IMG/VR virus record: IMGVR_UViG_3300035664_000056
Location: 1 to 31,076 of that record
Reading direction: 5' to 3' (one strand)
Source of the DNA: a virus
DNA length: 31,076 nt
Part shown: positions 3,560-27,456 of the stretch, piece by piece
How positions within the stretch are numbered: the stretch's first letter is position 1
Layout of the letters: each line of letters begins with the position of its first letter
The notes under the pieces: generated by a model
Seen by the model: the letters and a program-made list of their open reading frames with translations, nothing else
What the model was told of the DNA's origin: nothing
Databases searched by the model: none
Program-made: the position numbers and the translations under genes

Positions 3560-4155
3560 AATTAGCAGGCAACACTTATTTACCAGATAGTGATGAGTTC
3601 TTTGTCAACTACTTTAAATTAGGTGATGTGTTTGAAAACAAATCACTAGATATTGCAATAGAACATGTAAAGAAATGGGATGTTGCAGTAGATGGTGGTG
3701 CACATGTAGGTAGCTGGTCTAGGTTTCTATGTGATAAGTTTAATCTAGTCGCATCCTTTGAACCTAACCCTGATAACTTTGAATGTTTAGTAGCAAATAC
3801 TAAGAACAAAAACAATATTATTCTGTCTAAGTTTGGTCTATACGACACTCATCAAGAGTTTGCACTAGCAAGTGGTAATAACACAGGTTGTTGGCACTTA
3901 TCTGAAGGTAAGGGTATTAAAGTAATGCCTATGCCTGACTTCGGTGCATTAGACTTCTTAAAACTAGACGTAGAAGGTTTTGAACACAATGCTATTGCAG
4001 GCATGATAGACCAGGTTAAACGTTATAGACCTGTAATTGTGATAGAAGAAAAAAGCCTAGCACATAAACCACTCACATACGAAGCAAGAAATCTATTAGA
4101 AAGCATTGGCTATAAAGAAGTAGGTCAAGCACATAAGGATATAATCTTTGCTTAA
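3556..4155 (+). CDS. FkbM-family SAM-dependent methyltransferase
   Basis: The 199-residue product carries the SAM-binding motif I as VDGGAHVGSW (45-54), the acidic end of strand 2 as FEPNP (68-72), and DFLKLDVEGFE (133-143). The last, with its LDVEG core, is the hallmark of FkbM methyltransferases. This family usually O-methylates sugars or small polyketide-like acceptors. It overlaps the previous glycosyltransferase by ATGA, and its own stop overlaps the TTG start of the next. This points to methylation of a glycan made by its neighbours. A DNA methyltransferase is unlikely: there is no target-recognition domain and no DPPY or PC motif. Confidence 0.88.
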   Translation: MKLAGNTYLPDSDEFFVNYFKLGDVFENKSLDIAIEHVKKWDVAVDGGAHVGSWSRFLCDKFNLVASFEPNPDNFECLVANTKNKNNIILSKFGLYDTHQEFALASGNNTGCWHLSEGKGIKVMPMPDFGALDFLKLDVEGFEHNAIAGMIDQVKRYRPVIVIEEKSLAHKPLTYEARNLLESIGYKEVGQAHKDIIFA

Positions 4156-4768
4156 CATAACATTTCTTCATGTAGGTAAAGATGTAGATATGCCTACAAA
4201 AATGGTAGCTTCTGTAAAAGAAGTGATGCCAAATGCAAACATAGTTCAATTATCAGATATGAATACGCCAATTATAAAAGGCGTAAATACTATTATTCGT
4301 AAAGAATATAACGGTCTTATTATGTTATTTAGATTAGAACACCTAGCTTCATTAAGAGGCAATTGGGTAACGCTAGATACTGACATGATAATCAAGAAAG
4401 ACTTATCTCATGTATTTAACCAAGACTTTGATGTAGCTTTAACTAAACGCTATGGCTCTATTATAGATACAGAAGGTAATGATATCGTTAAGCTCATGCC
4501 ATATAACGCAGGTGTTATGTTTTCTAAGAACCATGAGTTTTGGATAGAAGCATTAAACAAATTAAAGAGTCTGGATAAAAAAGCACACGAATGGTATGGA
4601 GACCAATTAGCTATTAAGTTAATTGCAGATACAGATAACTATAAAGTATTAGAACTATCTTGTGATGAATATAACTACACTCCAAAAGATAAAGAAGAAC
4701 GTAAAGATGTATATGTTTATCATTTTAAAGGTCAGCGTAAAGACTGGATGATGAACGGACAATATTAA
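4148..4768 (+). CDS. DXD-type glycosyltransferase (GT-A fold)
   Basis: Translation most likely begins at TTG 4148, overlapping the FkbM stop. The first residues (LNITFLHVG) form the expected first beta strand, and the next in-frame Met (residue 15) would remove it. The motif TLDTDM (75-80) contains a DXD metal/nucleotide-sugar site. YNAGVMFSKNHEFW and the final HFKGQRKDW look like the acceptor and C-terminal regions of GT8/GT32-like enzymes. Length (206) is near the minimum for this fold. It follows the TPR-glycosyltransferase and FkbM genes and comes 10 bases before the adaptor gene. The likely role is transfer of a sugar to a virion protein or to host surface glycan; which one is not visible. 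Confidence 0.78.
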   Translation: MLNITFLHVGKDVDMPTKMVASVKEVMPNANIVQLSDMNTPIIKGVNTIIRKEYNGLIMLFRLEHLASLRGNWVTLDTDMIIKKDLSHVFNQDFDVALTKRYGSIIDTEGNDIVKLMPYNAGVMFSKNHEFWIEALNKLKSLDKKAHEWYGDQLAIKLIADTDNYKVLELSCDEYNYTPKDKEERKDVYVYHFKGQRKDWMMNGQY

Positions 4769-5813: not shown

Positions 5814-8800
5814 ATGGCTTTAGTAATAAAGGATAGGGTCAAAGAAACATCCACGACTACTGGCACTGGTACGCTTACACTTGCTGGAGCTACTACTGGC
5901 TATCAATCTTTTAGCACAGCTATCGGTAATACAAATACAACTTACTATACTATCTCTACACCTACAGGTTCAGAATGGGAAGTGGGTATTGGCACAGTAG
6001 CAGCAGGTACGTTAGCTAGAACAACTATCCTTGCTTCATCTAATGGTGGTAGTGCTGTCAATTTTAGTGCTGGTACTAAAGACGTATTCGGTACTTACCC
6101 TGCTGGTAAAGCTGTTTATTCTGATATTGAAAGTGATATTACTATAAATGGATTAAGAGTAGGTAAGGGTGGTGGTGCTGTAGCTACTAACACTGCTGTA
6201 GGTTTCCAAGCTATAAATGCTACTGCTACAGGAACTTTTAATACTGCATTAGGTTATCAAGCATTAAATGCTAATACTTCAGCAAGTCAAAACATTGCTG
6301 TTGGTTATCAAGCATTAAGAGTTAATACAACTGGTCCAAGAAATACTGCCGTAGGTGATAGGGCATTAGCAGCAAATACTACTGCTAATGATAATACTGC
6401 TATTGGTTATATATCATTAGTTAATAATATTACTGGATTAACAAATACAGCTTGTGGTGGTGGTACTTTAAGTAATAACACTACTACTAATAATAATACA
6501 GCAGTTGGTTATTTTGCATTAAATGCTAACACTACAGCCGTAGCCACATTAGGTTCTATCACAGGTGGTTCAGGCTATACAGATGGTACATATTCTGCCG
6601 TAGCTATGACACCAGTATCAGGTGCTACATTCCTTACATACCCAACAGTCAATGTTACAGTATCAGGTGGTGCAGTAACAGCAGTTACATTAGTCACCAA
6701 TGGTAGAGGTGCATCAGTCACTACAGCTACAGTTTTAACAGTGGCAGCAGCTCTTATAGGTGGTACAGGAAGTGGCTTTAGTATTCCTGTGGCTACCTTT
6801 GCAGCAGGTTCTAACAATACAGCGGTAGGTTCTAGTGCTTTAACTACTAATACAACAGGCAATAATAATGTAGCAGTAGGTATAAATGCTTTAAATCTTA
6901 ATACAACTGGTATTACTAACACAGCAATAGGTGCTTCAGCATGTGCTGCAAATACTACAGCAAGTCTTATTACAGGCGTTGGTTATCTTGCTTTAACAAG
7001 TAACACAACAGGTACTAATAATACAGCTTTAGGGGCAAGTGCCTTAAGATTTAACACTACTGGTGCTAGTAACACAGCAGTAGGTGTAAGTGCTTTAACA
7101 GGTAATATTTTAGGTGCACAAAATATTGCTGTTGGTGGTAGTGCATTAGCAGCTAATACAACAAATGTAGCTACACTAGGAACTATTGTAGGTGGTACTG
7201 GATACAATGGTGGAGCTTCAGGTGGACCATTAACTGTACAAGCATCATTATCTAGCGGTTCTACTGCTACTACATACCCTACACTTTCTATTACAGTAAC
7301 TAGCGGTGTAATTACTGCTGCTACTTTAGTCACTAATGGTGTAGGATTTAAAGATACAACTACAGTATTAACAGTAACATCTGCCGCTATGGTGACAGCA
7401 GGATTCGCTGCTGGTGGTTCAGGATTTACAGTGCCTGTAGCTACTTTACAATCAGGTGGTGATAATGTAGCGGTTGGTCATCAAACTTTACTAAGTAATA
7501 CTACAGGTTCTTTCAATACAGCCGTAGGTAGACTTGCCTTACAAAATAATACAACTGGAGTAAGAAATACTGCGATTGGACAAGCTGCTTTACAAGCAAA
7601 TACTACAAATAATTTTAGTACTGCTGTAGGTAATAACGCATTAACTTTAAGTAATGCTATAGCAAATACCGCTTTAGGACAAGCGGCTGGACAAGCAGTT
7701 ACATCAGGTACAGGTAATACATTACTTGGATATAATTCAGGTTTCTCAGGTACTAACAACCTAACCACAGGTTCTAACAACACTATTATTGGACAAAACG
7801 CAGCAGCATCATCAGCAACTGTATCTAACGAAATAACACTAGGCAACGCATCTGTAACATCACTAAGAGTACCAGGCATAGCAGCTACATTTGGTACTGA
7901 TAACTCTACTATATCTACGCTAACTGTGGGTAAGGGTGCAGGAGCAATTGCAACTAATACAGCAGTAGGAGTGTCAGCATTAAATAATACTAATGCTTCT
8001 AGTGCTTTTAACACTGCTGTTGGTTTTAATGCTATGGCATCTACCACAAGTGGTCAGTCCAATACTGCTATGGGTAGATTAGCTTTAAATACAAATACTA
8101 CAGGCGGTCAAAACACTGCAATAGGACAAGGTGCTTTAACCAATAACAGTGCTTCTGGAAATACAGCTTTAGGAAATTCTGCATTAAATTCTAATACATC
8201 AGCAACAGGTCAAGTAGGATTAGGTTACCAATCTTTATTATACACGACTACAGGTGCTAGTAATACTGGCGTTGGGTACTCATCACTACAAAATAATACA
8301 TTAGGTGCTAATAATGTGGCAGTTGGTAGAGATTCTCTTATAGCTAATACTACAGCAGTAGCCACACTAGGTGCTATTACTGGTGGTTCAGGATACACTA
8401 ACGGAACATATACTGGTGTAGTCATGACGCTTTCATCAGGTACAGCCGCAGGTGTTTATCCTACAGCTACTATTGTTGTTGCAGGTGGAGCAGTTACTAC
8501 AGTAACTCTTACAGCGTTTGGTTCAAGATTCTTAGACACAACCACAGTACTCACAGCTCCTGCTGCATCTATCGGTGGAACAGGTAGTGGATTCACAGTA
8601 CCCGTAGCAACACTAGCTACAGGTGGTAATAACACAGCAGTGGGATATCAGGCATTAAATGCTAATACGACAGCGAGCGATGTTGATGCTTTTGGATTTC
8701 AATCAATGCTATCAAACACTACTGGGATTGCAAATACAGCTTTTGGTGCTAGAACATTAAGACTTAATACTACTGGTATAGGTAATAGTGCTTTTGGTAA

Positions 8801-9419
8801 TCAAAGAGCTGGGGTTATAGCAGCAGCTTTAGCTGCTAACACTACAGGTAATTTTAATGCTGCCTTTGGAACTGGAGCATTAGCTGGCAATGCTACAGGT
8901 ATAGGTAGCTCTGCATTTGGCTATTCAGCTTTAAGTTTATGTACTAATAATAATAATTCTGCATTTGGATATTTAGCTTTAACTACTCTTAGTAGTGGAC
9001 AATCAAATACAGCTATTGGCGGACAAGCAGGTCAAGTAGTTTCAACAGGCAGTCAAAACACATTATTAGGAGCTTTTGCAGGTAATAGTGGCACTAACAA
9101 TCTTACTACTGGCTCTAACAACATCATCATAGGTTATAACGCTGCTGCATCATCAGCAACAGTGTCTAATGAGATAACAATAGGTAATGCTTCCATAACA
9201 TCTTTAAGAGTTCCTGGTCTTACTCTTACAGTAGGTGCTAAATGGATAAATGTAGGCACTAGCACAGTAGCAGCCTTAGTAGCTGCAGCAACAGCAGGTA
9301 ATGGTGCAAGAGCTTTTGTAACAGATGCCTTAGCACCAACATTTGGTGCGGCAGTGGTAGGCGGTGGTGCAGTATCAGTTCCTGTATATTCAGACGGAAC
9401 AACTTGGAATGTTGGATAA
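5814..9419 (+). CDS. Long tail fibre with NTAVG repeats and three nested modules
   Basis: AAAGGA lies 8 bases before the ATG. Residues 1-105 are a typical fibre attachment domain (DRVKETSTTTGTGTLTLAG, then EWEVGIGTV and FSAGTKDVFGTYP). From about 112 to 1135 the protein is mostly copies of an approximately 20-24-residue unit of the type NTAVGxxALxxNTTGxxN. This resembles trimeric adhesin head repeats, so the protein is probably a trimeric beta-roll fibre that binds the host surface. The repeats are broken at residues 243-329, 452-545 and 849-934 by versions of one module (listed separately). The body is doubled: each half starts with a VGKG(G/A)GA-ATNTAVG stretch and ends with SNEIT-GNAS-TSLRVPG. 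The C-terminus (VTDALAPTFGAAVVGGG to the end) is a common phage fibre end. Many antisense open frames here are codon-bias artefacts. Confidence 0.88.
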   Translation: MALVIKDRVKETSTTTGTGTLTLAGATTGYQSFSTAIGNTNTTYYTISTPTGSEWEVGIGTVAAGTLARTTILASSNGGSAVNFSAGTKDVFGTYPAGKAVYSDIESDITINGLRVGKGGGAVATNTAVGFQAINATATGTFNTALGYQALNANTSASQNIAVGYQALRVNTTGPRNTAVGDRALAANTTANDNTAIGYISLVNNITGLTNTACGGGTLSNNTTTNNNTAVGYFALNANTTAVATLGSITGGSGYTDGTYSAVAMTPVSGATFLTYPTVNVTVSGGAVTAVTLVTNGRGASVTTATVLTVAAALIGGTGSGFSIPVATFAAGSNNTAVGSSALTTNTTGNNNVAVGINALNLNTTGITNTAIGASACAANTTASLITGVGYLALTSNTTGTNNTALGASALRFNTTGASNTAVGVSALTGNILGAQNIAVGGSALAANTTNVATLGTIVGGTGYNGGASGGPLTVQASLSSGSTATTYPTLSITVTSGVITAATLVTNGVGFKDTTTVLTVTSAAMVTAGFAAGGSGFTVPVATLQSGGDNVAVGHQTLLSNTTGSFNTAVGRLALQNNTTGVRNTAIGQAALQANTTNNFSTAVGNNALTLSNAIANTALGQAAGQAVTSGTGNTLLGYNSGFSGTNNLTTGSNNTIIGQNAAASSATVSNEITLGNASVTSLRVPGIAATFGTDNSTISTLTVGKGAGAIATNTAVGVSALNNTNASSAFNTAVGFNAMASTTSGQSNTAMGRLALNTNTTGGQNTAIGQGALTNNSASGNTALGNSALNSNTSATGQVGLGYQSLLYTTTGASNTGVGYSSLQNNTLGANNVAVGRDSLIANTTAVATLGAITGGSGYTNGTYTGVVMTLSSGTAAGVYPTATIVVAGGAVTTVTLTAFGSRFLDTTTVLTAPAASIGGTGSGFTVPVATLATGGNNTAVGYQALNANTTASDVDAFGFQSMLSNTTGIANTAFGARTLRLNTTGIGNSAFGNQRAGVIAAALAANTTGNFNAAFGTGALAGNATGIGSSAFGYSALSLCTNNNNSAFGYLALTTLSSGQSNTAIGGQAGQVVSTGSQNTLLGAFAGNSGTNNLTTGSNNIIIGYNAAASSATVSNEITIGNASITSLRVPGLTLTVGAKWINVGTSTVAALVAAATAGNGARAFVTDALAPTFGAAVVGGGAVSVPVYSDGTTWNVG
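6540..6800 (+). repeat. Inserted fibre module, copy 1
   Basis: Residues 243-329 of the fibre. The module opens VATLGSITGGSGYTDGTY, has a YPTVNVTVSGGAVTAVTL core and closes with GTGSGFSIPVATF. It begins right after NANTTA and is followed by SNNTAVG, so the surrounding repeat resumes in phase. I recall the same Gly-Tyr-Thr-rich unit in other marine phage structural proteins. Confidence 0.8.
7167..7448 (+). repeat. Inserted fibre module, copy 2
   Basis: Residues 452-545. It opens VATLGTIVGGTGYNGG and ends GGSGFTVPVATLQ, with YPTLSITVTSGVITAATLV in the middle. It is about seven residues longer than copy 1 because of extra residues near both ends. It is inserted after AANTTN and followed by GGDNVAVG. 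Confidence 0.8.
8358..8615 (+). repeat. Inserted fibre module, copy 3
   Basis: Residues 849-934. It opens VATLGAITGGSGYTNGTY, has YPTATIVVAGGAVTTVTL inside and ends GTGSGFTVPVATLA. It sits after IANTTA and before GGNNTAVG. It resembles copy 1 more than copy 2, especially in the first 20 residues. Confidence 0.8.
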
Positions 9420-10349: not shown

Positions 10350-11186
10350 ATGGCAAAGAATAAAATTTCAGAGTTTAGTGCAACCGCAGCAAATAATACA
10401 GATATCACCAATATTAATATTGCTGAAGGATGTTCTCCAGCTAACGTAAACAATTCTATACGTTCACTTATGGCTTTACTTAAAGACCAACAAGATGGCA
10501 CAAGTGGAGATAACTTTACAGTAGGTGGTAATCTTACTGTTACTGGAACTACAACTTTAACTGGTGGTTTAGCATCTGCACTTCCTGTAGCAAGTGGTGG
10601 TACAGGAGCAACTACAGCTAGTGGCGCTAGAACATCTTTAAGTGCTGCTGTAACTGGAGCAAATGGTGACATTACATCACTTACAGGTTTAACTACTCCA
10701 TTATCAGTTGCACAAGGTGGCACAGGAATTACAGCACTTGGTACAGGTGTTGCTACTGCATTAGGACAAAATGTTTCAGGTTCAGGTAGTATAGTATTAG
10801 GAACATCACCTACTTTAACTACTCCTGCATTAGGTACACCAAGTGCAATAGTCCTTACTAATGCTACAGGCACGTCTAATAGTTTAAACGCAGGTATTGG
10901 TGTTAATCAAACTTGGCAATTACCAACAAGAGTATCAGGCACATCATATACAAATAGTACAGGTAAGCCAATACAAGCATTAGTTACTTTTAATGTTGAT
11001 ACAAGTGGAAGTGGTACTGTTGTTGTAGTAGTAGGTGGAGTTACCATTTCATCACAAAGCCATACTATTAGTTCAAGTGGCGGTGCTATTCCATATTCAA
11101 CTGCATTTATTGTACCCAACAGCACAGCATATACTGTTACCGTTACAGGCGGCACAAGTATTGCAACTTGGGCTGAATTAAGATAA
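10350..11186 (+). CDS. Tail fibre protein
   Basis: The first 45 residues (KISEFSATAANNTDITNINIAEGCSPANVNNSIRS stretch) are a very common phage fibre N-terminus. Then come GNLTVTGTTTLTGGL and two ASGGTGATT / AQGGTGITA turns, the collagen-free glycine hinges seen in many fibres, and LGTPSAIVLTNATG. The C-terminal 100 residues are a Ser/Thr/Val-rich beta domain that ends in ATWAELR and could bind a receptor. AAGGATAAAAA precedes the ATG. The stop overlaps the next start as TAATG. It is probably a second, shorter fibre of the particle. Confidence 0.8.
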   Translation: MAKNKISEFSATAANNTDITNINIAEGCSPANVNNSIRSLMALLKDQQDGTSGDNFTVGGNLTVTGTTTLTGGLASALPVASGGTGATTASGARTSLSAAVTGANGDITSLTGLTTPLSVAQGGTGITALGTGVATALGQNVSGSGSIVLGTSPTLTTPALGTPSAIVLTNATGTSNSLNAGIGVNQTWQLPTRVSGTSYTNSTGKPIQALVTFNVDTSGSGTVVVVVGGVTISSQSHTISSSGGAIPYSTAFIVPNSTAYTVTVTGGTSIATWAELR

Positions 11187-12799
11187 TGCCTACACAGCGC
11201 ATACAATTTAAAGAATGGTTACCAGACCAACCATCTATTTTAGATACAGTATCAGAAGCTAATAACGTCATTCCTTTAGCTGTAGGATATGGTCCATTTA
11301 AGTCAGCAGTAAACTATTCAGGTGCAGCTACAGAAGACCTTAATAATTGCTTTGCAGGCAAAATTAACAATGACGTATCTATATTTGCAGGTGGAGCAAC
11401 AAAGTTATTTAAAGTATCCTCTACAGACTTATCTATGGAAGATGTTACAAGAGCAGCAGGTGCATATACAGGTGTTAATAGATGGCAATTCGTTCAGTTT
11501 GGAAATACAGTATTAGCTTCCAATGGTTCTGAAAAAATACAAGCTTATGATATAACATCATCTACAGACTTTGCAGACTTAGCAGCCGCAGCTCCTGTAG
11601 CTAAATACATTACAATAGTTCGTGACTTTGTAGTAGGTGCTAATATAGGTGCTGGCACATACCCATCACGTGTTCAATGGTCAGATATTAATGATGAAAC
11701 AGATTGGACTCCTGGAGCTGCATCACAAAGTGATTTCCAAGAACTTCCTGACGGTGGTGACATTACAGGTATTACAGGCGGAGAGTTTGGTATTGTATTC
11801 CTAGAAAAAGCCATTGTGCGTATGTCATATATTGGCTCACCATTATTCTTTCAGTTTGACACTATCTCACGTAATGTAGGTTGTGTAGAAGGTGGCTCTA
11901 TAGCACAATATGGTGGTGTAACATACTTCTTATCAGATGATGGTTTCTATTCATGTAACGGACAACAAGTTACAGGTATTGGTTCAGAAAAGGTAGATAG
12001 ATACTTTTATGCTAATGCAAACATTGGTGATATTGACTCTATATCAGCAGCAGCAGACCCAGAACGTAATTTAATTATTTGGAACTACACAACAGTTTCA
12101 GGTAACAGAGCATTACTTATCTATAACTTTGAAACACAAAAATGGTGTGAAGCTGATACAGATGTAGATGTGTTATCAACATTAGCTACTACAGGCACAA
12201 CTTTAGACGGTATAGATACAGCTTATAACGTAACAGCAGGTTCTTTTGTAGTAGGCAAGTCATATACTATTAGAAGCATAGGCACAACAAACTATACACT
12301 TATAGGTGCAGTAGCTAATACTGTAGGCGTATTATTTACAGCTACAGGTGTAGGTTCAGGCACAGGTGTTGCTATTGATATGGCAGCAAGTGCAGCAGCA
12401 CTAAAGACTGTAGATACTCTTACAACTACACTAGACGATAGACTATATGCTGGTGGTAAATTCCTATTTGGTGGTGTTCGTGATACTAAAATTATCACAT
12501 TTACCGGAACTAATGCTACAGCAAACATTATCACAAACGACCTAGAATACGGTTATAACTCTGTGCTTACTCTTATCAGACCTTCTGTAGATAATGGCTC
12601 TGCAAGCGTTTCTGTGGCTTCTAGACGTATGTTAAACGATACTATTACTTATAGTTCATCTGTAACAGCAAGTGAAGAAGATAGATGTTCTGTAAGAAGT
12701 GCAGGTCGTTATCATAGAATTAGCCTTACCCCTACTGGTGCAGATTGGCATTCAGCTATTGGTTTAGATTTGGATTACACAACACAAGGTAATAGATAA
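11186..12799 (+). CDS. P22 gp10-like tail hub / DNA stabilisation protein
   Basis: The 537-residue product begins QRIQFKEWLPDQPSI and has the stretches VIPLAVGYGPFKS, FGNTVLASNGSEKIQAYD, RVQWSDINDETDWTPG, ITGGEFGIVFLEKAIVRMSY and YFLSDDGFYSCNGQQ. This is the beta-propeller pattern of podovirus tail hub proteins such as P22 gp10, which plug the tail below the adaptor and hold packaged DNA. A foreign-looking module interrupts the last third at residues about 349-397. Starts and stops overlap as TAATG on both sides. The call rests on recalled family pattern and on its place among adaptor, fibre and ejection genes. Confidence 0.8.
   Translation: MPTQRIQFKEWLPDQPSILDTVSEANNVIPLAVGYGPFKSAVNYSGAATEDLNNCFAGKINNDVSIFAGGATKLFKVSSTDLSMEDVTRAAGAYTGVNRWQFVQFGNTVLASNGSEKIQAYDITSSTDFADLAAAAPVAKYITIVRDFVVGANIGAGTYPSRVQWSDINDETDWTPGAASQSDFQELPDGGDITGITGGEFGIVFLEKAIVRMSYIGSPLFFQFDTISRNVGCVEGGSIAQYGGVTYFLSDDGFYSCNGQQVTGIGSEKVDRYFYANANIGDIDSISAAADPERNLIIWNYTTVSGNRALLIYNFETQKWCEADTDVDVLSTLATTGTTLDGIDTAYNVTAGSFVVGKSYTIRSIGTTNYTLIGAVANTVGVLFTATGVGSGTGVAIDMAASAAALKTVDTLTTTLDDRLYAGGKFLFGGVRDTKIITFTGTNATANIITNDLEYGYNSVLTLIRPSVDNGSASVSVASRRMLNDTITYSSSVTASEEDRCSVRSAGRYHRISLTPTGADWHSAIGLDLDYTTQGNR
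12230..12376 (+). repeat. Hitchhiking module inside the tail hub protein
   Basis: About 49 residues of the tail hub follow the pattern AGSFVVGKSYTIRSIGTTNY, then a GAVANTVGVLFTATG stretch and GSGTGVA. The same small unit recurs, as I remember, in unrelated phage fibre and tail proteins, where it appears to move as a cassette. Here it sits between the NVT and IDMAASAAALK stretches of the host protein. Confidence 0.6.
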
Positions 12800-13596
12800 T
12801 GGCACGTAGTGATATGTACCGTAAACTACCTTGGACAGGTGGTGATGCTAGAAGTGTAGCAGAGATTGTAAATAACCTTGTAGAAGGTAAAAGCAACAAT
12901 ACTGGTGAAGTTACTTTAAATACAGGCTGGGCTACAACTACCACAATATCTGATGAACGTATAGGTTATAATTCATATATAGGTTTAATGCCTATATCAG
13001 ATGCAGCAGAAGCAGATACAGCACCTTATGGTTCATTTAGTAATAATACAGACCAAACAGCACCAAGCGTAGGCTCAACTGCTGTAGTAGTTTATGATAC
13101 AACAGAAGAGTCTAACGGTGTTTATTTATCTAGTAGCAGTCGTTTAAATGTAAGAAATGCTGGAACTTACAATGTTCAATTTTCTCTGCAATTAGTCAAT
13201 AAAGATAATGCACCACAATATGCAGATATATGGTTTCGTGTAAATGGAACAGATGTTCCAAGAAGTGCTAGTAGGTTTGATATTCCAGAAAGAAAAAGTG
13301 CTTCTGACTGGGGTCATATTGTTGGAACAGTAAATATCTTTTTAGATATGAACGCTAATGACTATGTAGAAATTGCAGGAACAACATCAAGTACATTGGT
13401 TGGGCTTGAGCATTATGCAGCAGATGCTATTATTCCTAGACCTGCTATTCCAGCAGCTATTGTAACAGTAAACTATATTGCACCATTATCTATGGACAAC
13501 GTATATATTAGTGCACAACAAACAGGACAAGCTACTCTTACTCACTTTGCAAATGACACATCCAATAAGACATATCGTTATATAATAGTAGCGTGA
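12799..13596 (+). CDS. Virion surface protein with inserted C1q/TNF-like sandwich
   Basis: Residues 1-75 (DARSVAEIVNNLVEGKSNNTG, then TTTTISDERIGYNSYIGLMP) and the last 35 (NVYISAQQTGQATLTHFAND to YRYIIVA) look like the two halves of one small conserved phage protein. Between them, residues about 76-228 resemble a jelly-roll of the C1q/TNF type (NGVYLSSSSRLNVRNAGTYN, then DIWFRVNGTDVPRS and HIVGTVNIFLDMNANDYV). Such folds often bind sugars or proteins on the outside of particles. The gene overlaps its neighbours as TAATG and GTGA. The domain reading is from pattern memory; its place in the tail gene row supports a structural role. Confidence 0.7.
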   Translation: MARSDMYRKLPWTGGDARSVAEIVNNLVEGKSNNTGEVTLNTGWATTTTISDERIGYNSYIGLMPISDAAEADTAPYGSFSNNTDQTAPSVGSTAVVVYDTTEESNGVYLSSSSRLNVRNAGTYNVQFSLQLVNKDNAPQYADIWFRVNGTDVPRSASRFDIPERKSASDWGHIVGTVNIFLDMNANDYVEIAGTTSSTLVGLEHYAADAIIPRPAIPAAIVTVNYIAPLSMDNVYISAQQTGQATLTHFANDTSNKTYRYIIVA

Positions 13597-13991
13597 TATT
13601 ACATTACATACCTAAAGACCAACTTAGGACTCATTGGGAGTTTATTAAACATGGTCTTGAAATAGTCAGAAGCAAAGGTCATCCTGAGTGGTTAGTAGAG
13701 GATGTCTATTGTGATTGTTACGAACAACGCTCTATGGTATTTCTAGCTGTAACCGATAACAAACCTTATGGCTTTGTAGTATTACAACCTATAGGTAAAA
13801 CACTTCATGTATGGGCTGCATGGTCTACGATTAATAACGAATTATTACTTCAACAAGCGTTTCAAGAAATACAACAAATAGCAAAGAACGGTCAAAAGAC
13901 TAAAGTAACATTTAGTTCTCAACGTAGAGGTTGGGAACGAAAAGCAAAACAAATGGGTTTTAAACCTCAAACATGGGAATTTAATATTTAA
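13593..13991 (+). CDS. T7 gp13-like GNAT-fold protein
   Basis: The start is GTG, overlapping the previous TGA (GTGA). The 132-residue product has YCDCYEQRSMVFLAVTDNKPYGFVVLQ, the first strands of a GNAT acetyltransferase-like fold. It goes on with LHVWAAWS, and ends in a helix plus RRGWERKAKQMGFKPQTWEF, the typical final GNAT segment. Small proteins of this type lie beside the ejection genes of T7-like podoviruses (gp13), where they help morphogenesis or are enclosed in the head. The classical acetyl-CoA loop is not obvious, so catalytic activity is doubtful. Confidence 0.7.
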   Translation: MILHYIPKDQLRTHWEFIKHGLEIVRSKGHPEWLVEDVYCDCYEQRSMVFLAVTDNKPYGFVVLQPIGKTLHVWAAWSTINNELLLQQAFQEIQQIAKNGQKTKVTFSSQRRGWERKAKQMGFKPQTWEFNI

Positions 13992-13998
13992 GGAAACA

Positions 13999-14391
13999 AT
14001 GATGGGTATGCCAAATCAAAATTCAGCTTCTGCTGGTCAAGTATATTATGACAATACTACAGGTCAATATTACACCAATAATCAACCACAACAATCTAAT
14101 AATCCATTTGCTCAATTGTTTAGTCAATCGCCAGAACTAGCTGCAATGATGCGTGGTAATAGAAATTACATTGGTGGCAGTCCGTTAAACAATACTTATA
14201 ATCCATTGCAAGCTAATACAATGCAATCTAATGAAATAGCTCCATATCCAACAACAGAAAGTTTGTTTCCTGGGCTTAATGCTGGTTTAACACAAAACAT
14301 GCAAGGCACAACTTATGGTATGCCATCATCAGGCGCAGGTAGATTTTTAACTAGCGGTCTAATATCAAACAATACATCTAAAGGTCAATAA
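13999..14391 (+). CDS. Gln/Asn-rich virion-associated protein, unknown
   Basis: AAGGAAAC stands just upstream of the ATG. The 130-residue product is unusually rich in Gln, Asn, Ser and Gly (for example GQVYYDNTTGQYYTNNQPQQ) and has no membrane segment or known motif. One hydrophobic helix-like bit (PFAQLFSQSPELAAMMRGN) could dock onto another protein. Its place between the gp13-like gene and the ejection protein genes suggests an internal virion or assembly role. I do not recognise the family. Confidence 0.6.
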   Translation: MMGMPNQNSASAGQVYYDNTTGQYYTNNQPQQSNNPFAQLFSQSPELAAMMRGNRNYIGGSPLNNTYNPLQANTMQSNEIAPYPTTESLFPGLNAGLTQNMQGTTYGMPSSGAGRFLTSGLISNNTSKGQ

Positions 14392-14393
14392 CT

Positions 14394-15512
14394 ATGAAAT
14401 TATCTAACTCATTTAAATTACTTAATCCTATTTGGATTATGGATAACTTTTTAACATTTTATGGTGGTGGTGGCGCTCCAACTAGCTCTACAACTACATC
14501 TGGTATTGACCCATCTGTAAAACCTTATGTAACTTATGGTCTTGAACAAGGTAAGCAGTTATATGAAGGTAACACTCCACAATACTATGGTGGTCAGACT
14601 TATGTAGGACCTTCACAACAAACGCAAGCTGCTTTACAAGCTGCACAGAATCGTGCTATGGCAGGCAATCCTTTACTTCCTGCTGCTCAACAACAACAAC
14701 AAAATGTAATTAGTGGTCAATACTTACAAAACAATCCATACTTTAACCAAGCTCTTGCAGGTGCTGCACAAGGTGCTACACAAAACTACAATGATGCTAT
14801 TGCTGCTGCTCAAAGCTCTTTATCAAGAGCAGGTCGTTATGGTTCTAACGTAGGTGCTGATATTCAAAACAGAGCTGCTAGTACATTAGCAAATACACTA
14901 GCTAATAAATATGGTGAGCTTGCTTATCAAAACTATGGTGCAGAACGTGGTAGACAAGAAGCTGCTGCTATGGGCGCACCTGGTCTTGCACAAGCTGATT
15001 ATGCAGATATTCAACAATTAGCTAACGTAGGTAAAACTGCTGAAGATTATCAATCTCAAGCATTGCAAGCTGATATTGACAGATTCAATTACCAACAAAA
15101 CTTACCGTATCAAAAACTACAAAACTACGCTAATCTTATTGGTCAAACACCTATGGGAAGTGTATCTACTACCCAATCATCCGGTGGTGGCAAGATTGTA
15201 TGTACAGCTATGAACGCTGAATATGGATTTGGTAGCTTCCGTAACGCTATTTGGTTAGCTCAATCTAAAGACTTAGACCCAGCATACGAAAAAGGTTATC
15301 ACGCTCTATTCTTACCATTAGTAACCTATGCTTATAAGAGTGGCGAGAAAAGCACTCTACAACGCATTTTAAGGGGTGTTTTAGAGCATATCGCAAGACA
15401 TAGGACTGCTGATATCTGGAAACAAAAAAGAGGTAAAACTAGAGATACTTATGGCATGATTTATCGTGCTATCTTAGAGCCTATTTGCTACGTAGTCGGA
15501 AAGGCTAAATAA
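14394..15512 (+). CDS. Ejection-type internal virion protein with hydrophobic leader
   Basis: The first 22 residues (LNPIWIMDNFLTF within them) form a hydrophobic leader that closely resembles the start of the next gene. The middle (about 35-250) is Ala/Gln/Gly-rich helix with SSLSRAGRYGSNVGADI and NTLANKYGELAYQNYG, a pattern I recall from phage internal proteins. The last 110 residues form a distinct domain starting KIVCTAMNAEYGFGSFRNAIW with YHALFLPLV and a basic helix, also seen in several podovirus proteins. It probably travels in the capsid and is injected with the DNA. Start and stop overlap neighbours by TAATG or nearly so. Confidence 0.7.
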   Translation: MKLSNSFKLLNPIWIMDNFLTFYGGGGAPTSSTTTSGIDPSVKPYVTYGLEQGKQLYEGNTPQYYGGQTYVGPSQQTQAALQAAQNRAMAGNPLLPAAQQQQQNVISGQYLQNNPYFNQALAGAAQGATQNYNDAIAAAQSSLSRAGRYGSNVGADIQNRAASTLANTLANKYGELAYQNYGAERGRQEAAAMGAPGLAQADYADIQQLANVGKTAEDYQSQALQADIDRFNYQQNLPYQKLQNYANLIGQTPMGSVSTTQSSGGGKIVCTAMNAEYGFGSFRNAIWLAQSKDLDPAYEKGYHALFLPLVTYAYKSGEKSTLQRILRGVLEHIARHRTADIWKQKRGKTRDTYGMIYRAILEPICYVVGKAK

Positions 15513-16252
15513 TGAAATTGTTTAACTGGATTAATCCTTTATGGATTATAGATACATTCTTTACTATGCGTCTTGAACCAATTACAGCAACTTCAGCATT
15601 AGGTGCTATGTTAGGTGCTGGTGGTACTGCTGCTGCAAATGCAGCTATTACAGGTGCTGGCATAGGTGCATTAGGTAGTGCAGCTACAGGTAGTGACCCA
15701 CTTAAAGGTGCTTTAATAGGTGGTGCATTAGGCGGTGGTGGTTCTTTATTAGGAGCAGGTGGTGGTGCAGTAGGTAGTGCTAGTGAAGCTACAAAAAATG
15801 CTGCTAATGTAGCATCAAATATTACACCTGAAGTAGCCACTACATTTATGAATCAAAATATATCACCATTATTAACAAATGAAGCCACTAGAGCTGCTGC
15901 ATCTTTTAATCCAAGTCAATTTGCTGTTCAAGGATTTTCAGATGGTGTTATGAATCAGTATGCACCAAACTTTGCAGACATTGCTATGGGTAAATCTGCT
16001 GACTTTACAGGTGGTGGTTATGGTGGTAGTTTTTTAAATAATATTGGTCAATCATCTTTAGATGCACTTAAAAACAACCCAGTACAAACAGCAGGCTTAG
16101 GCATGGGCATATATGACAGAATAAATGCTCAACCACAGCAAATGCAAGCACAACCAGCCCAAGTAAGTCGTGGTAAAGGTTCAGTACAATATGAACCATT
16201 ATTAATGACACAAGTACCAAGACGTAGATACCCATTATCATTATTAGGATAA
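15512..16252 (+). CDS. Glycine-rich internal virion protein with hydrophobic leader
   Basis: The start overlaps the previous stop (TAATG). The leader (INPLWIIDTFFTM within the first 20 residues) matches that of the previous gene. Residues about 28-90 are a glycine/alanine-rich, membrane-prone stretch (ALGAMLGAGGTAAANAAITG, then GALIGGALGGGGSLLGAGGG), typical of glycine-zipper helices in phage ejection proteins that enter the host envelope. The C-terminus is polar, Gln-rich and ends with RRRYPLSLLG. It likely belongs to the DNA-ejection set. The family name is unknown to me. Confidence 0.68.
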   Translation: MKLFNWINPLWIIDTFFTMRLEPITATSALGAMLGAGGTAAANAAITGAGIGALGSAATGSDPLKGALIGGALGGGGSLLGAGGGAVGSASEATKNAANVASNITPEVATTFMNQNISPLLTNEATRAAASFNPSQFAVQGFSDGVMNQYAPNFADIAMGKSADFTGGGYGGSFLNNIGQSSLDALKNNPVQTAGLGMGIYDRINAQPQQMQAQPAQVSRGKGSVQYEPLLMTQVPRRRYPLSLLG

Positions 16253-16255
16253 ATC

Positions 16256-17458
16256 ATGGCATTATTTGATAACAACCCATTGTATAACAATATATCATCA
16301 CTTACTAATCCAGTCACATCAGGGCTTGGTGGTTTGTTTGACGGTATGAGTGTATTTGGCACTAGTATACCAACAGGAGTTTTAGGCACTGGTGAAGAAG
16401 ACAAATTACGAAAGCAAGCATTATTACAAGGTTTATTAGGAACTGCCGCAACATATTTAGCTACTCCTAAAAACTTAAACACAGGAAGTGCATTACCATA
16501 CCTAGGAAAAGCATTTTTAGGTGGTATGGGTGCATCTCAAGACGTAGTAGATAAAGCTGTCAGAGCAAAATTATTGGCTGGTAGAGATGATAACTTATAT
16601 AACGTAGATGGTGCTTTAGTAGACAAATCTGGTAAGGTTATATATCAATCACCAACAAAACAACAAAAAAGAGACACTGCTGTTGTAGACGGAGTTGTTG
16701 TTGATGTTAATACAGGTGAAGCAGTCTACACATCTCCTAAACAACAAAAACTTAATACAGATGTTATTGATGTAGGTGGTAAAAAAATTCTTATTAATAA
16801 AGATACTGGCGAAGCAATACAAGAATATAAAACTACTACTCAACCAAAAGAAATAAAATACACAATTCAAAATGATGCAAGTGGTCAAGCTGTTTATGTT
16901 CCAGATACACCTGGCGCACAAGCATTAGATATGCAAGGCAGACCAATAACATATAAACCAGCACTTTCACCAGACCAAGCAAAAAGACAAGAAAAATTAG
17001 AAAAAGCAAAAGAAATTCCAGATTTGCTTAAAGAAGCTGAATCATTATTGCCTAAAGCTACAGGAAGCGGTCTTGGTGCAGCTAGAGATGTTGTAGCAGC
17101 TATTGGTGGAAAATCTACAAAAGGAGCTCAAAATCTTGCATCATTAAAATACATTCAATCTCAACTTATTTTAAAAATGCCTAGACTTGAAGGTCCACAA
17201 GGTGTTCTTGACTTGAAATTATATGAATCAGCAGCAGCAGATATTGGAAATCCTTATGTTCCAGCAGAAACTAAAAAAGCTGCATTAGATACAATTAAAC
17301 GTCTTAGCACTAAATATGATATTAATGAAACACCAAATCAACCTACTCAACAAACTAATGTACAAGCACCTGCTAGCGGATTTAAAGAAGGTGCAAAAAC
17401 TAAGTCTAAAAGTGGTAAACCAATGATATTTAGAAACGGTCAATGGGAGTATGAATAA
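16256..17458 (+). CDS. Ejection / DNA transfer protein with KQQK-DT repeats
   Basis: The 400-residue product starts with a Gly-rich hydrophobic region (about 15-105). Then come short repeats of the form KQQKxDTxVVDxGG with a KILINKDTGEA core (about 133-200), similar to those in phage injection proteins. The C-terminal third has LPKATGSGLGAARD, then LILKMPRLEGPQGVLDLKLY and ESAAADIGNPYVPAETKKAAL. I recall this strongly from prophage 'DNA transfer' proteins. The end is basic with a Trp-Glu-Tyr tail. It probably enters the host with the DNA. The stop overlaps the next ATG as TAATG. Confidence 0.72.
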   Translation: MALFDNNPLYNNISSLTNPVTSGLGGLFDGMSVFGTSIPTGVLGTGEEDKLRKQALLQGLLGTAATYLATPKNLNTGSALPYLGKAFLGGMGASQDVVDKAVRAKLLAGRDDNLYNVDGALVDKSGKVIYQSPTKQQKRDTAVVDGVVVDVNTGEAVYTSPKQQKLNTDVIDVGGKKILINKDTGEAIQEYKTTTQPKEIKYTIQNDASGQAVYVPDTPGAQALDMQGRPITYKPALSPDQAKRQEKLEKAKEIPDLLKEAESLLPKATGSGLGAARDVVAAIGGKSTKGAQNLASLKYIQSQLILKMPRLEGPQGVLDLKLYESAAADIGNPYVPAETKKAALDTIKRLSTKYDINETPNQPTQQTNVQAPASGFKEGAKTKSKSGKPMIFRNGQWEYE

Positions 17459-19020
17459 TGGCTAGAGTTCCTTTAGAAGATTTGCCAAGTAATTTAATGC
17501 CATCTAGTGACCTACCATTAGAATTACCTACAATTAATGTAGTGCCAGAAGATGATTTACCATCATCTATTCTTAAAAAACAAAGAAGTATGACAGAACA
17601 AATAGGTCGTGGTTTAAGTTCTATTGCTAGAGGTGCTGCTGTTCCTGTAACAGGTGCAATTGCTGGTGGTGCATTAGGTGGTCCTGTTGGTGCTATTGCA
17701 GGTGGATTAGCATTACCTGCTGCTGAACTTTTAACTAAAGGTATTAATTTAGCATTGCCAGATAGATATGATATTCCATCTCCTACATCAACAGTAGAAC
17801 AAGGTTTAACTAAATTAGGTTTTCCTGTTCCTGAAACACAAACAGAAAGAGCCTTGCAAGTTGGAGGTAGTGCATTAGGTGGAGTTGGTGGTCAGGTAGG
17901 TGCATTAGGTCAGTTAGCTAAAACAGCTACAACACCTGTTGGTCGTGGTATTGCACAAACATTATCACAACAACCTGTAAGACAAGTTGCAGCAGCATTA
18001 CCTGTAGGTGCTACATCACAATATGTGGCAGAAGAAACAGGTAGTCCTTTAGTTGGTATGGCAGCAGGTATTGCAGCAGGAATACCATTTGCTGTTGGTG
18101 CTAAAGGTACATTACAAGCTCCTACTGTTCAAGAATTAAAAGGACAAGCTGGTCAACAATACAAGTTTGCTGAAGATGTAGGTGCTGTGTTTAAAAAGAA
18201 CTCCTATAATCAATTTGCTAATAAACTAGAATCAACATTAGCTAAAGAAGGTTTAGATAAAACATTACAGCCTAGAGTGTTTGCAGCGTTAGAAAGAATT
18301 AAAGACACTAAAAACTCTAATGTAACGCTTGAAAACATGGAAATATTAAGGCGTATTGGTCAAGCAGCAGGTTCTAGTGCAGACGCATCTGAAAGACGTT
18401 TATCAAGTATTATGATTGATAACCTAGACGACTTTGTAGAAAATGCTCAACCTGGTCAATTATCTAAAGGTTCGTCAGAAGCTGTAAGAGCTTTAACAGA
18501 CGCTAGAGAATTATGGAAACGTGCTAAGAAAACAGAAATTATTGATGACTTAGTAGCAAGTGCAGAATTGCGTGCAGAAGCAAATTATAATCAGTCAGGT
18601 ATAGAAAATGCACTAAGACGTAAATTAGTTAATCTTGCAGATAACCCTAAAAAATTAAGAGCATTTAGTAAAGAAGAGCAAGAATTAATTAAATCTACAG
18701 CTAAAGGTGGTTCAGTACAAAATGCTTTGCGTTTATTTGGTAAACTTGCACCAACAGGAGCTATCTCTGCTGGTATATCTGGAGGAGCTGGTTTTGTAGC
18801 AGGTGGTCCAATGGGTGCTATAGGCTTACCTATTATAGGTGGTGCAGCTAGACAAGGTGCTACACAATTAGGTTTGCGTAACATAGAACAATTACGTAAT
18901 AGACTTGCTACAGGAAATGCTCCTATTCCACAAGTATCTACTAGAAGTCTTATTGGTGCTAGAGAAGTTGCAGCACCTATTATTAACCCTATCACAGGAT
19001 TATTATCAGAGGAACAGTAA
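17458..19020 (+). CDS. Large ejection protein with glycine-zipper membrane segments
   Basis: This 520-residue protein has several Gly/Ala-rich hydrophobic segments: residues about 60-90 (IAGGALGGPVGAIAGGLALP), about 150-165, about 198-215, and about 430-465 (ISAGISGGAGFVAGGPMGAI). Between them lies a long, mostly helical polar domain (about 225-425). This order is usual for podovirus internal proteins that form a channel across the host envelope during DNA entry. No transglycosylase motif is visible. It overlaps the preceding gene (TAATG) and the small gene after it (TAATG). It is the last and longest of the ejection set. Confidence 0.7.
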   Translation: MARVPLEDLPSNLMPSSDLPLELPTINVVPEDDLPSSILKKQRSMTEQIGRGLSSIARGAAVPVTGAIAGGALGGPVGAIAGGLALPAAELLTKGINLALPDRYDIPSPTSTVEQGLTKLGFPVPETQTERALQVGGSALGGVGGQVGALGQLAKTATTPVGRGIAQTLSQQPVRQVAAALPVGATSQYVAEETGSPLVGMAAGIAAGIPFAVGAKGTLQAPTVQELKGQAGQQYKFAEDVGAVFKKNSYNQFANKLESTLAKEGLDKTLQPRVFAALERIKDTKNSNVTLENMEILRRIGQAAGSSADASERRLSSIMIDNLDDFVENAQPGQLSKGSSEAVRALTDARELWKRAKKTEIIDDLVASAELRAEANYNQSGIENALRRKLVNLADNPKKLRAFSKEEQELIKSTAKGGSVQNALRLFGKLAPTGAISAGISGGAGFVAGGPMGAIGLPIIGGAARQGATQLGLRNIEQLRNRLATGNAPIPQVSTRSLIGAREVAAPIINPITGLLSEEQ

Positions 19021-22586: not shown

Positions 22587-23025
22587 TTTCTTTCCAAGTA
22601 TTACCATTTGCAATACTCCTATCATTAAAACCACCAACTAATAAATACTCTTTATATGGCTGTGTTTTATCTTCAGTCAATACATAAGGTTTATTATATT
22701 TGCCAATATTAATGTCAATATAAAAGGCAGTATTAAAGTAGTCAATTTGTGAGTTTGACTCATCATACCATTCACCAACCAATTTTATAGTATCTAATAC
22801 TTCGTTTAAAAATTGTTTAGCTTTTCCTTCATAATGACTAGCAACATGATAAACATTCACTTGTTGATGAGTGCTACCAAAATTAATATCACCGGATACA
22901 ACATTTACTACTAATGTTGAATGATATGAATTTCTAGCTAATGTTGCTTTAATACCATATTTTTTAAATATAGGTTTTAATGCAGCATGTATTTTTGTTT
23001 TAGTTTCAGTATTAATGTAAGCCAT
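22576..23025 (-). CDS. LPD29-like protein, unknown role
   Basis: The 149-residue product begins INTETKTKIHAALKPIFKKY, followed by ATLARNSYHSTLVVNVVSGD, VNVYHVASHY and a FLNEVLDTIK helix, then YFNTAFYIDINIGKYNKPY. I recall a family of mobile-element and phage proteins (large polyvalent protein-associated domain 29) with the same opening and the 'S-H-S-x-V-V-V-x-S-G-x-I-F' type of strand. Function there is not established. Its start overlaps the clamp stop as TAATG, so it is probably made together with the clamp. Medium confidence for the family, high for the gene. Confidence 0.75.
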   Translation of the reverse strand: MAYINTETKTKIHAALKPIFKKYGIKATLARNSYHSTLVVNVVSGDINFGSTHQQVNVYHVASHYEGKAKQFLNEVLDTIKLVGEWYDESNSQIDYFNTAFYIDINIGKYNKPYVLTEDKTQPYKEYLLVGGFNDRSIANGNTWKESEV

Positions 23026-23675
23026 TATGCAGCCTCCTTTACAGACTCTTTAGGTTCGTCAAATAAAAATTTTGGTTTAGTAATAATTGCATCATTAACA
23101 TTTTTTAATGGGCAAATAATACCAACACAATCAGACTCAACATCTACTAAAGCTGCTTTGTCACCATTTTGGCTTAAATATGCTTTCTTAAATTTAATGC
23201 CAGATATATACTCAGCAGCCTTATTAAAGTCATTAAGATATGTAAAGTCATAATTACCAGGTTCATTAGATACTGACTCTGGAAATACTCTTCTAAAGTC
23301 AGGGTACGTTGCCTGAATTGGTAATGTTTCTAATTTGACTGCATCACTAATAACATCAATTTTCTTAACTATTTTATCTTCAACAGTTAAAGTTATTAAA
23401 CCCACATCAACTCGTGGTTTAACTTTTAATAAAGATTCAATAGTTTCAATCGGAATAATAGCTCCAATAGTATCTCTACCATGTTGCGTTTCACGATTAT
23501 AGATAGCTGCACTTAATAGTCTATGACCATCAGTTGCAACAAAGATAGTGTTATATTTATTAAACTCAACATAAACACCATTAAGATAATGCCTTATATC
23601 TTTTTTACCTACAAAAAGTTTTAAAGCCTTTAAATGACCAAAAGTTACTACTACTTCATACTTAAATGTTTCCAT
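23025..23675 (-). CDS. Shortened beta sliding clamp (DnaN-like)
   Basis: I choose ATG 23675, 7 bases after AAAGGAG, instead of an upstream TTG. This gives 216 residues. RHYLNGVYVEF (28-38), VATDGHRLL (46-54) and YPDFRRVFP (124-132) match the order of the second and third domains of bacterial beta clamps, and CVGIICPL corresponds to the end of domain III. The first domain, about 120 residues in cellular DnaN, is missing. The protein may form a ring that holds a polymerase or other replication factors on DNA. It is the first gene of the operon behind the promoter at 23742-23769 and overlaps the next gene (TAATG). Confidence 0.82.
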   Translation of the reverse strand: METFKYEVVVTFGHLKALKLFVGKKDIRHYLNGVYVEFNKYNTIFVATDGHRLLSAAIYNRETQHGRDTIGAIIPIETIESLLKVKPRVDVGLITLTVEDKIVKKIDVISDAVKLETLPIQATYPDFRRVFPESVSNEPGNYDFTYLNDFNKAAEYISGIKFKKAYLSQNGDKAALVDVESDCVGIICPLKNVNDAIITKPKFLFDEPKESVKEAA

Positions 23676-23704
23676 GTTACTCTCCTTTAGCAAAATTTCT
23701 TGTT

Positions 23705-26277: not shown

Positions 26278-26901
26278 TTACTCCTTCAGTTTTAAAATTG
26301 TTTGGTCTACTTCATCTAAAAACTTAATAACCTCAGCTTCTAGGCTTGCTATTGTATCATTACATCTGTCAACCCTTGCTACAAATAACTGTAGTTCTTC
26401 AGGGAAGTTAGGATTATAGCTTACAAAGTCTACCCACTTAGCACCGGTGCAAGCTAACTGCCATTGCATTTGTGGAATGTATTTACTAGGAACTGACTTG
26501 CTCATAAGCGTATTAGTATGGGTTGTTTCTATAGGGCATTTAATCTCTATAAGACCTGCATACTTACCCTCTTCTTCTGCATTTACAGCTCCGTCTGGGC
26601 TAGCACCACTATTCTTAATAACAGGATGGTCAAAGAAACCTACTTCTGTTACAGATACTACTTTAGATTGCATATAAAGCTCTCTAGCAACACTTTCTCT
26701 TTCAATACCATCTAGCATAGCTTGATTAACAAAGCTATCTCCTTTCTTACCTGTAAGACGTTCTGATACAAGTTGGATAAGGTAGTTTTGACGAGATGTA
26801 GATACGCCTGTTTTAGTCTTGGCGATAACATCCGATATTCTGGATGCTGTCACCTTGCCTAGACGTTGCTGAAACCACTCATCTGTGCGTTGTTCTATCA
26901 T
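26278..26901 (-). CDS. YqaJ/lambda-type 5'-3' exonuclease
   Basis: The 207-residue product begins IEQRTDEWFQQRLGKVTASR, the standard YqaJ opening. It has GASPDGAV (99-106) with Asp103 and LIEIKCP (117-123) with Glu119 and Lys121, the metal-binding D...ExK set of lambda exonuclease. It probably degrades one strand from DNA ends so that the DUF1071 protein can anneal the other. Start and stop overlap neighbours (4 bases upstream). Length is normal for phage YqaJ proteins. Confidence 0.92.
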   Translation of the reverse strand: MIEQRTDEWFQQRLGKVTASRISDVIAKTKTGVSTSRQNYLIQLVSERLTGKKGDSFVNQAMLDGIERESVARELYMQSKVVSVTEVGFFDHPVIKNSGASPDGAVNAEEEGKYAGLIEIKCPIETTHTNTLMSKSVPSKYIPQMQWQLACTGAKWVDFVSYNPNFPEELQLFVARVDRCNDTIASLEAEVIKFLDEVDQTILKLKE

Positions 26902-27299
26902 AGGAAATCCTTGCTAGATACTGCCTTTAGAGTTGGTTGTTCTGACTCTGGAATATCCTCACCGCTATAGATGTAAAGACCAATACCATGTAACGCAATA
27001 GCTTTAGCTAAACAACGCTGCATAGCTGTATTAACTGCCATAGCGTCAGGGTTAGGTATTGCTTGGTTTCTAAAGTTAAGCACAGGTAATTGTGCAGTCA
27101 TAGACTTACCAAACGCATGGACTGTGCAGAATACCATAAGTGTTTCACCAAACTGTTTAGGTTCACCATATCCCCATGAAGCTGTTGGGTCTTGCTGTAG
27201 AAGAGTGTCTACAGCCCAAGCCCATGATAGATATGATAGACCATTCTTTTTTTCAATGTGGTCTGATACATTAATTTTTCGTAGTTCGTTATAGTTCAT
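26898..27299 (-). CDS. DUF1071 single-strand annealing protein (Sak3-like)
   Basis: I choose ATG 27299, with AGGAGAG just before it; the longer frame from 27374 adds a Gln-rich stretch that overlaps another gene. From this start the product (133 residues) reads NYNELRKINVSDHIEKKNGL, then SYLSWAWAVDTLL, GETLMVFCTVHAFGKSM, AVNTAMQRCLAKAIALHGIG and LYIYSGEDIP. This is the DUF1071 pattern, a Rad52-like phage annealing protein. With the YqaJ exonuclease next door it forms the two-component recombination system. The role is well supported by family and partner. Confidence 0.85.
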   Translation of the reverse strand: MNYNELRKINVSDHIEKKNGLSYLSWAWAVDTLLQQDPTASWGYGEPKQFGETLMVFCTVHAFGKSMTAQLPVLNFRNQAIPNPDAMAVNTAMQRCLAKAIALHGIGLYIYSGEDIPESEQPTLKAVSSKDFL

Positions 27300-27456
27300 C
27301 TTTCTCTCCTGTTGTTGTAATTCTTGTTGGTGCTGTTCCATCATCACCTGGTCGTAATGTTGTTGTTGTGACATTTTGTTCTCTCTCCCATTTATCGTTA
27401 TCTAATTTAAGTTCGTCATTCAATCGTTTAAGAATATCTGCTATATGTTCTAACAT
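27289..27456 (-). CDS. Small helical early protein
   Basis: ATG 27456 follows GGAG by 7 bases and is preferred over ATG 27468 or earlier starts. The 55-residue product begins LEHIADILKRLNDELKLDN, an amphipathic helix, then has a Thr-rich flexible end. Its tail contains the ribosome site of the DUF1071 gene, and the two genes overlap by 11 bases. No function is known. Confidence 0.6.
   Translation of the reverse strand: MLEHIADILKRLNDELKLDNDKWEREQNVTTTTLRPGDDGTAPTRITTTGEKDEL

Follow-up and report, generated by a model that had tools for sequence, protein, structure and literature searches.

The best studied case of a short leader on an ejection protein is gp7 of phage P22. Its 20 N-terminal residues are cut off by a host protease prior to virion assembly, according to the accessible part of PMC4992974. 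The GenBank note on gp7 names OpdA as the enzyme removing these 20 residues. In the accessible part of PMC8402733, mature gp7 is described to start with Lys-Gly-Gly-Lys-Gly (KGGKG), procapsid binding is assigned to residues 21-154, which do not include the leader, and a burst of still about 60% is given for gp7 without its 20 leader residues. Entry of the P22 ejection proteins needs the scaffold (PMC4992974, PMC8402733, both in part). Among the P22-like phages the leader differs in Brookers and phiSG1, and APSE-2 has no leader and starts at the Gly stretch. The primary OpdA paper is said to be that of Conlin et al. from 1992. To our knowledge, the P22 leader has been known for decades and no function was assigned to it.

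For T-even phages a conserved capsid targeting sequence (CTS) on otherwise diverse internal proteins is described in the accessible part of PMC3012670. Exchange of modules inside the P22-like ejection gene gp20 is known as well (Casjens and Thuman-Commike 2011, via the accessible part of PMC10883804), and PMC10386132 (in part) describes internal virion genes as highly mosaic. In the full-text literature searched, leader cassettes of ejection proteins were the subject of no paper; subscription papers are mostly outside its scope, and this absence is weak.

The window, i.e. the whole stretch of 31,076 nucleotides analysed here, is a 31-kb virus record with a SU10-type major capsid protein gene at 906-1859. 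In 5' to 3' order it carries a gp10-like stabilization gene, a gene at the needle position, an acetyltransferase-like gene and four further genes, called gene 1 to gene 4. This parallels the order gp10-gp26-gp14-gp7-gp20-gp16 of P22 and Sf6, with one gene (gene 2) added in the window. The gp10-like tail protein gene, which precedes the ejection genes (11186-12799, plus strand), matched phrog_3287 (E 6.3e-66), and its product name ('stabilization') is identical in the annotations of the loci L003 and L004. At the position of P22 gene 14 lies the acetyltransferase-like gene (13593-13991, plus strand), which matched phrog_610, as did its homologue in L003. It is separated from gene 1 by a small Asn/Gln-rich ORF (13999-14391), for which the PHROG and Pfam searches gave no significant match; the L003 annotation has no gene at this place. 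Gene 3 (16256-17458, plus strand) was assigned by position to P22 gene 20, the gene of the second ejection protein. The L003 gene syntenic with it, next after gene 2, matched phrog_2534, and P22 gp20 matched another part of this profile. Gene 4 (17458-19020, plus strand) takes the position of P22 gene 16, the gene of the third ejection protein, and was assigned by position only. Its PHROG label 'major head protein' (phrog_21712) is probably wrong, because a clear SU10-type major capsid protein is already encoded at 906-1859. In the segment between capsid and head-tail adaptor genes (2231-4768), three genes are TPR-glycosyltransferase-, methyltransferase- and glycosyltransferase-like, as read from their translations. 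A protein of 1,201 residues built of repeated 'NTAVGxxAL' units (5814-9419) is probably a tail fibre or adhesin, and a gene with a DNA polymerase III beta (sliding clamp) domain was found on the minus strand (23025-23693, E 1.1e-10).

Gene 1 (14394-15512, plus strand) codes for the first ejection protein of 372 residues. Residues 30-275 matched phrog_4287 'DNA ejection protein' (E 1.1e-13), and the ribosome-binding site AAAGG was read from the sequence at 14380-14384 (plus strand). The protein begins with the leader MKLSNSFKLLNPIWIMDNFLTFY of the NPxW class (14394-14462), which was identified by the ORF, a shuffle test and a leader HMM. It is followed by a Gly-rich, low-complexity linker (14463-14504), the ejection-protein body of about residues 38-262 (14505-15179, match to phrog_4287) and a C-terminal part of about residues 266-371 (CTAMNxEYGFGSFRN..., 15189-15506), all on the plus strand. 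The C-terminal part seems to be a portable module. For gene 1 as a whole the AF2 model was too poor for use (pLDDT 45.7, about 28-37 for the leader). Comparable in its homologous body (phrog_4287) and Gly-rich linker is gp46 of the Methylophilales phage Venkman EXVC282S. In contrast to gene 1, gp46 carries another N-terminal module (GDTELAH...GGSGTINP) in the leader slot and the C-terminal module is missing. The N-terminus of gp46 (L004 3791-3970, GDTELAH...GGSGTINPVTG) recurs in Phage DSL-LC04, there labelled 'tail tape measure', and in two Manatee Spring phages. Furthermore, the pelagiphage protein HTVC033P gp76, otherwise unrelated, ends with the C-terminal module of gene 1, which was also detected in contigs with the labels Ruegeria, Chloroflexi MAG, Flavobacterium SAG and Prochlorococcus.

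Like gp7 of P22 and Sf6 (phrog_598), gene 1 is the first ejection gene behind the gp10, needle and gp14 positions, and it encodes a leader of about 20 residues, then a Gly-rich stretch and then an ejection body. As in the P22 gp7 family, the leader is variable or missing among the relatives. From the same position and the same succession of parts we infer that gene 1 corresponds in function to P22 gp7. Sequence homology of the two was not detected. Profile comparison of the gene-1 body with gp7 found none (hhalign probability <1%), and in the PHROG search gene 1 fell into phrog_4287, with no match to phrog_598. The leaders examined here have no sequence in common with the P22 leader, and unlike it they are hydrophobic-aromatic and shared with a second protein.

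This second protein is the product of gene 2 (15512-16252, plus strand), a glycine-rich, zipper-like protein of 246 residues. The start of gene 2 and the stop of gene 1 share one base, and the gene-2 ribosome-binding site GGAAAGG (15498-15504, plus strand, read from the sequence) lies inside the end of gene 1. The gene-2 leader MKLFNWINPLWIIDTFFT (15512-15565, plus strand) was identified by the same three means as that of gene 1. Both ORFs lie where the preliminary description of this DNA had placed them; they span 14394-15512 (372 residues) and 15512-16252 (246 residues). The N-terminus of gene 1 reads MKLSNSFKLLNPIWIMDNFLTFYGGGG and that of gene 2 MKLFNWINPLWIIDTFFTMRLEPIT. Over the first 26 residues a local BLOSUM62 score of 55 was obtained. 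Shuffles of this pair gave a mean of 19.8 and a maximum of 49, and a score of at least 55 occurred in 0 of 20,000. Among the 903 pairs of N-termini from the 43 CDS of the window this pair ranks first; the runner-up scores 34. For the rest of the two proteins the score was 53 at a shuffle mean of 47.4, and 118 of 500 shuffles were as high. The two proteins are unrelated beyond the leader. Thus, a common N-terminal pattern with an unrelated remainder, as claimed in the preliminary description, was confirmed in both parts (55 versus a maximum of 49; remainder at shuffle level). To call the leader hydrophobic is fair, with 55-60% of F, W, Y, I, L, M and V compared to a median of 40% for the N-termini of the window. 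By inspection it does not appear to be a transmembrane or Sec-type sequence. Compared by composition only with the basic n-region, long hydrophobic core and cleavage box of Sec signal peptides, the leader classes have a net charge of -2 to +2 and cores interrupted by N, D or P.

Translation includes the leader instead of starting after it. An SD-like motif was found at 115 of 118 gene-1 leader starts, and third codon positions of the leaders are more variable than second ones. The variable sites at codon positions 1/2/3 number 9/2/10 for the MFKLHNW class and 6/3/12 for the MINLxNW class of gene 1, and 6/1/9 for the MFKYFN group and 6/2/11 for the MKLF group of gene 2. The ribosome-binding sites and this pattern of variation support translation of the leaders. 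Related phages have the leader as well. Hence one homologous tag, translated and recurring in relatives, is carried by two unrelated and probably internal (ejection) proteins, which agrees with the earlier proposal.

For the comparison with relatives, 200 loci with a body match were reduced to 119 distinct ones, 118 of which were used. The tree excludes Venkman L004, loci lacking a start or with an incomplete body, and those with identical starts over the first 900 nt. A pattern search of viral contigs for gene 1 gave 207 matches, 202 of which encode a gene-1 relative; 80 of them were kept. A separate pattern, M[FI][KN]L[HN]NW, gave 80 analysed matches, of which 65 are on gene-1 bodies, three on truncated gene-1 starts and 12 on other ORFs, mostly very short. 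Since loci fetched by leader patterns bias the counts, the subset not fetched in this way (67 rows including the window) is reported too. Some N-terminal leader was present in all 118 rows. Six hydrophobic classes (MFKLHNW.., MINLxNW.., NLSNW.., FLIPAL.., FGFD.. and NPxW, the class of the window) account for 114 of them, and four leaders are hydrophilic. In the FGFD class the start is ambiguous (two ATGs), the class assignment being independent of the start choice. A Gly-run linker was found in 116 of 118 relatives, and most gene-1 leaders end with FT[FL][YW] just before the glycines. In two more distant relatives (L236 and L237) gene 1 begins directly at the body, without a leader.

The tree was built from the 118 bodies with the leader left out. 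On it, the seven leader classes require 35 changes, with a minimum of 6 and a mean of 63.6 after shuffling. The classes are therefore clustered, yet they change often. For the 67-row subset 23 changes were counted (41.9 after shuffling). One case is the pair L017 and L018, identical over the 375 nt compared upstream and in the body, with a difference of about 110 bases from the start codon to the linker. The two share 5.3 kb at a median identity of 100%, and the leader gives the only 100-nt bins below 0.85. In 29 locus pairs both flanks are at least 92% identical, and seven of these differ in leader class. Such differences between near-identical flanks arose in at least five unrelated settings. 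Assembly chimaeras from metagenome data could in principle be the source of such swaps; against this stands their recurrence in these settings. Pairs such as L073/L173 and L086/L090 are mosaic in many places, and there the leader is therefore not the sole exchanged patch. MFKLHNW and NLSNW leaders on distant bodies (<0.80 nt identity) share 0.92 nt identity within their class. In four classes the codon agreement at identical residues was higher in the leaders (0.82, 0.72, 0.79 and 0.84) than in the bodies (0.65, 0.67, 0.68 and 0.67), as recent exchange predicts, but start-proximal codon constraints could be another source of it. For the fifth class, NPxW, the relation was reversed (0.508 in leaders versus 0.583 in bodies, nine pairs). 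These comparisons show that alternative leaders replace one another before the same gene-1 body. With high confidence, the leader is a discrete cassette of about 18-24 residues, recombining independently of the protein behind it.

Gene 2 is poorly conserved, and a pattern search of viral contigs gave a gene-2 relative for only six of 69 matches. Its leader was found in 22 of 109 loci; within the set retrieved without leader patterns the count is 15 of 64. On the gene-1 tree its gain and loss require at least 14 changes (109 loci) or at least eight (64 loci). The pairs L064/L070 and L055/L062, in which the gene-1 end is at least 96% identical, differ by 54 and about 70 bases, respectively, each time in frame and right behind the gene-2 start codon. 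Thus, the gene-2 leader was shown to be optional, an in-frame block directly behind the ATG that is either present or absent. The NPxW leaders of gene 1 reach maximum scores of 72-75 against gene-2 leaders and score 35 or less against other gene-1 classes, and the closest match of the gene-1 leader of the window is the gene-2 leader of another phage type. Therefore leaders have moved from one of these genes to the other as well. The presence of a leader on gene 2 is not tied to an NPxW leader on gene 1; both occur together in two of 22 loci. With the NPxW leader HMM, 3,923 RBS-preceded N-termini of the fetched loci gave 29 distinct matches at E <= 5.4e-10, all in gene 1 or gene 2, and the next followed at E 0.96. 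When the leader was sought on other proteins by two short tblastn runs against 50,697 phage records, no match was obtained, in a short-query mode that may be insensitive. In one record (H1) the gene-1 leader belongs to another class, and NPxW may simply be missing from those records.

The window encodes a YqaJ recombination exonuclease (26278-26901, minus strand; PF09588, E 3e-27) and a Sak single-strand annealing protein (26898-27374, minus strand; PF06378, E 7.1e-38), possible agents of the cassette exchange. This annealing recombination of the phage itself probably helps the exchange, and would use short homologies on either side of the cassette, i.e. the conserved RBS sequence upstream and the repetitive Gly codons downstream.

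Regarding function, a removable pre-leader is the likeliest reading by analogy to P22, at slightly below an even chance in our judgement; the main rival is a tether at the membrane interface. In the infected cell the ejection proteins would be synthesised with the leader as a removable pre-sequence, which would shield or briefly park the membrane-active protein until procapsid loading. A host peptidase may then trim it near the Gly-rich junction. Since tests of the P22 leader showed almost no function, the shielding is what we infer ourselves. Cleavage, suggested in the preliminary description, has its precedent in the OpdA removal of the gp7 leader. Only the bulk character would be kept in the leaders, i.e. 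about 18-24 aromatic, aliphatic and Asn-rich residues with the gene-1 end FT[FL][YW] before Gly, and unrelated leaders would therefore be interchangeable. The aromatic junction FT[FL][YW]GG is conserved in gene 1 and has no counterpart in gene 2, and thus there is no obvious cleavage site common to both. For the whole explanation, a swappable cassette that serves as a removable pre-sequence, the chances are about equal.

Alternatively, the leader could stay in the virion and act after ejection, when a Trp/Phe/Asn-rich helix would lie in the interface of the host membrane and the Gly linker would let the ejection protein build a conduit. The hydrophobic fraction (0.55-0.60 versus a window median of 0.40), the nearly universal flexible Gly linker in gene 1 (116 of 118) and the glycine-zipper-like gene 2 are in line with this. 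Several leader classes are moderately amphipathic (muH up to 0.61), but others are weakly so (about 0.4, window median 0.43). Hydrophilic leaders in four of 118 rows, relatives with leaderless gene 1 and the mostly leaderless gene 2 also argue against a tether, and the P22 counterpart is cut off before assembly, according to the accessible part of PMC4992974. We consider this reading unlikely.

Capsid targeting of the T4 or jumbo-phage type had been one idea of the preliminary description, besides membrane insertion. The leader would bind scaffold, portal or coat and carry different ejection proteins into the procapsid. A short N-terminal tag on two otherwise unrelated, probably internal proteins does resemble the T4 CTS, conserved among T-even phages on otherwise diverse internal proteins (PMC3012670, in part), and the scaffold is required for the entry of P22 ejection proteins (PMC4992974, PMC8402733, in part). 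Unlike the CTS, the leader is optional, variable in sequence and swapped, with seven classes on one body family instead of one sequence conserved on all targeted proteins. Of the 64 loci not fetched by leader, 49 lack it on gene 2; gene 1 of L236 and L237 has none, and the leader sequence changes between phages with near-identical flanks. The T4 prohead protease cuts at [LI]xE. The loose motif [LIV]xE was found in none of 22 gene-2 leaders and in 59 of 118 gene-1 leaders, and no protease was identified. In P22 the leader is off before assembly, residues 21-154 bind procapsids without it, and about 60% of the burst is kept after its deletion (accessible parts of PMC4992974 and PMC8402733). Optional occurrence, sequence turnover and the P22 result thus disfavour capsid targeting, which we regard as improbable. 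Least probable is a tolerated extension without protein function, in a low-complexity region where recombination turns it over: the burst of about 60% in P22 (PMC8402733, in part) and leaderless relatives (APSE-2 among the P22-likes, L236 and L237) would fit, but second codon positions are strongly conserved, all 118 main-set rows have a leader (114 of hydrophobic class), and leaders recur and do not drift.

A wider proposal we hold to be doubtful. A group of aquatic podo-like phages would keep a shared pool of short leader cassettes, rapidly exchanged on the first ejection protein. The annealing recombination encoded by the phage would copy them in both directions between this gene and the adjacent one, and selection would favour variation in the contact of the ejection proteins with host membranes or host exclusion factors. 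As in the intragenic mosaicism of P22-like gp20 (Casjens and Thuman-Commike 2011, via the accessible part of PMC10883804), modules are exchanged within ejection-protein genes. In contrast to gp20, what is exchanged here is a leader about 20 codons long, moved also between two genes. Nature offers many combinations of leader and body, some of them in otherwise identical sequence; hence, what a leader must be and whether it is cut become testable. In these phages recombination exchanges stretches of about 100 bases inside a virion gene, and a tag moves between adjacent genes.
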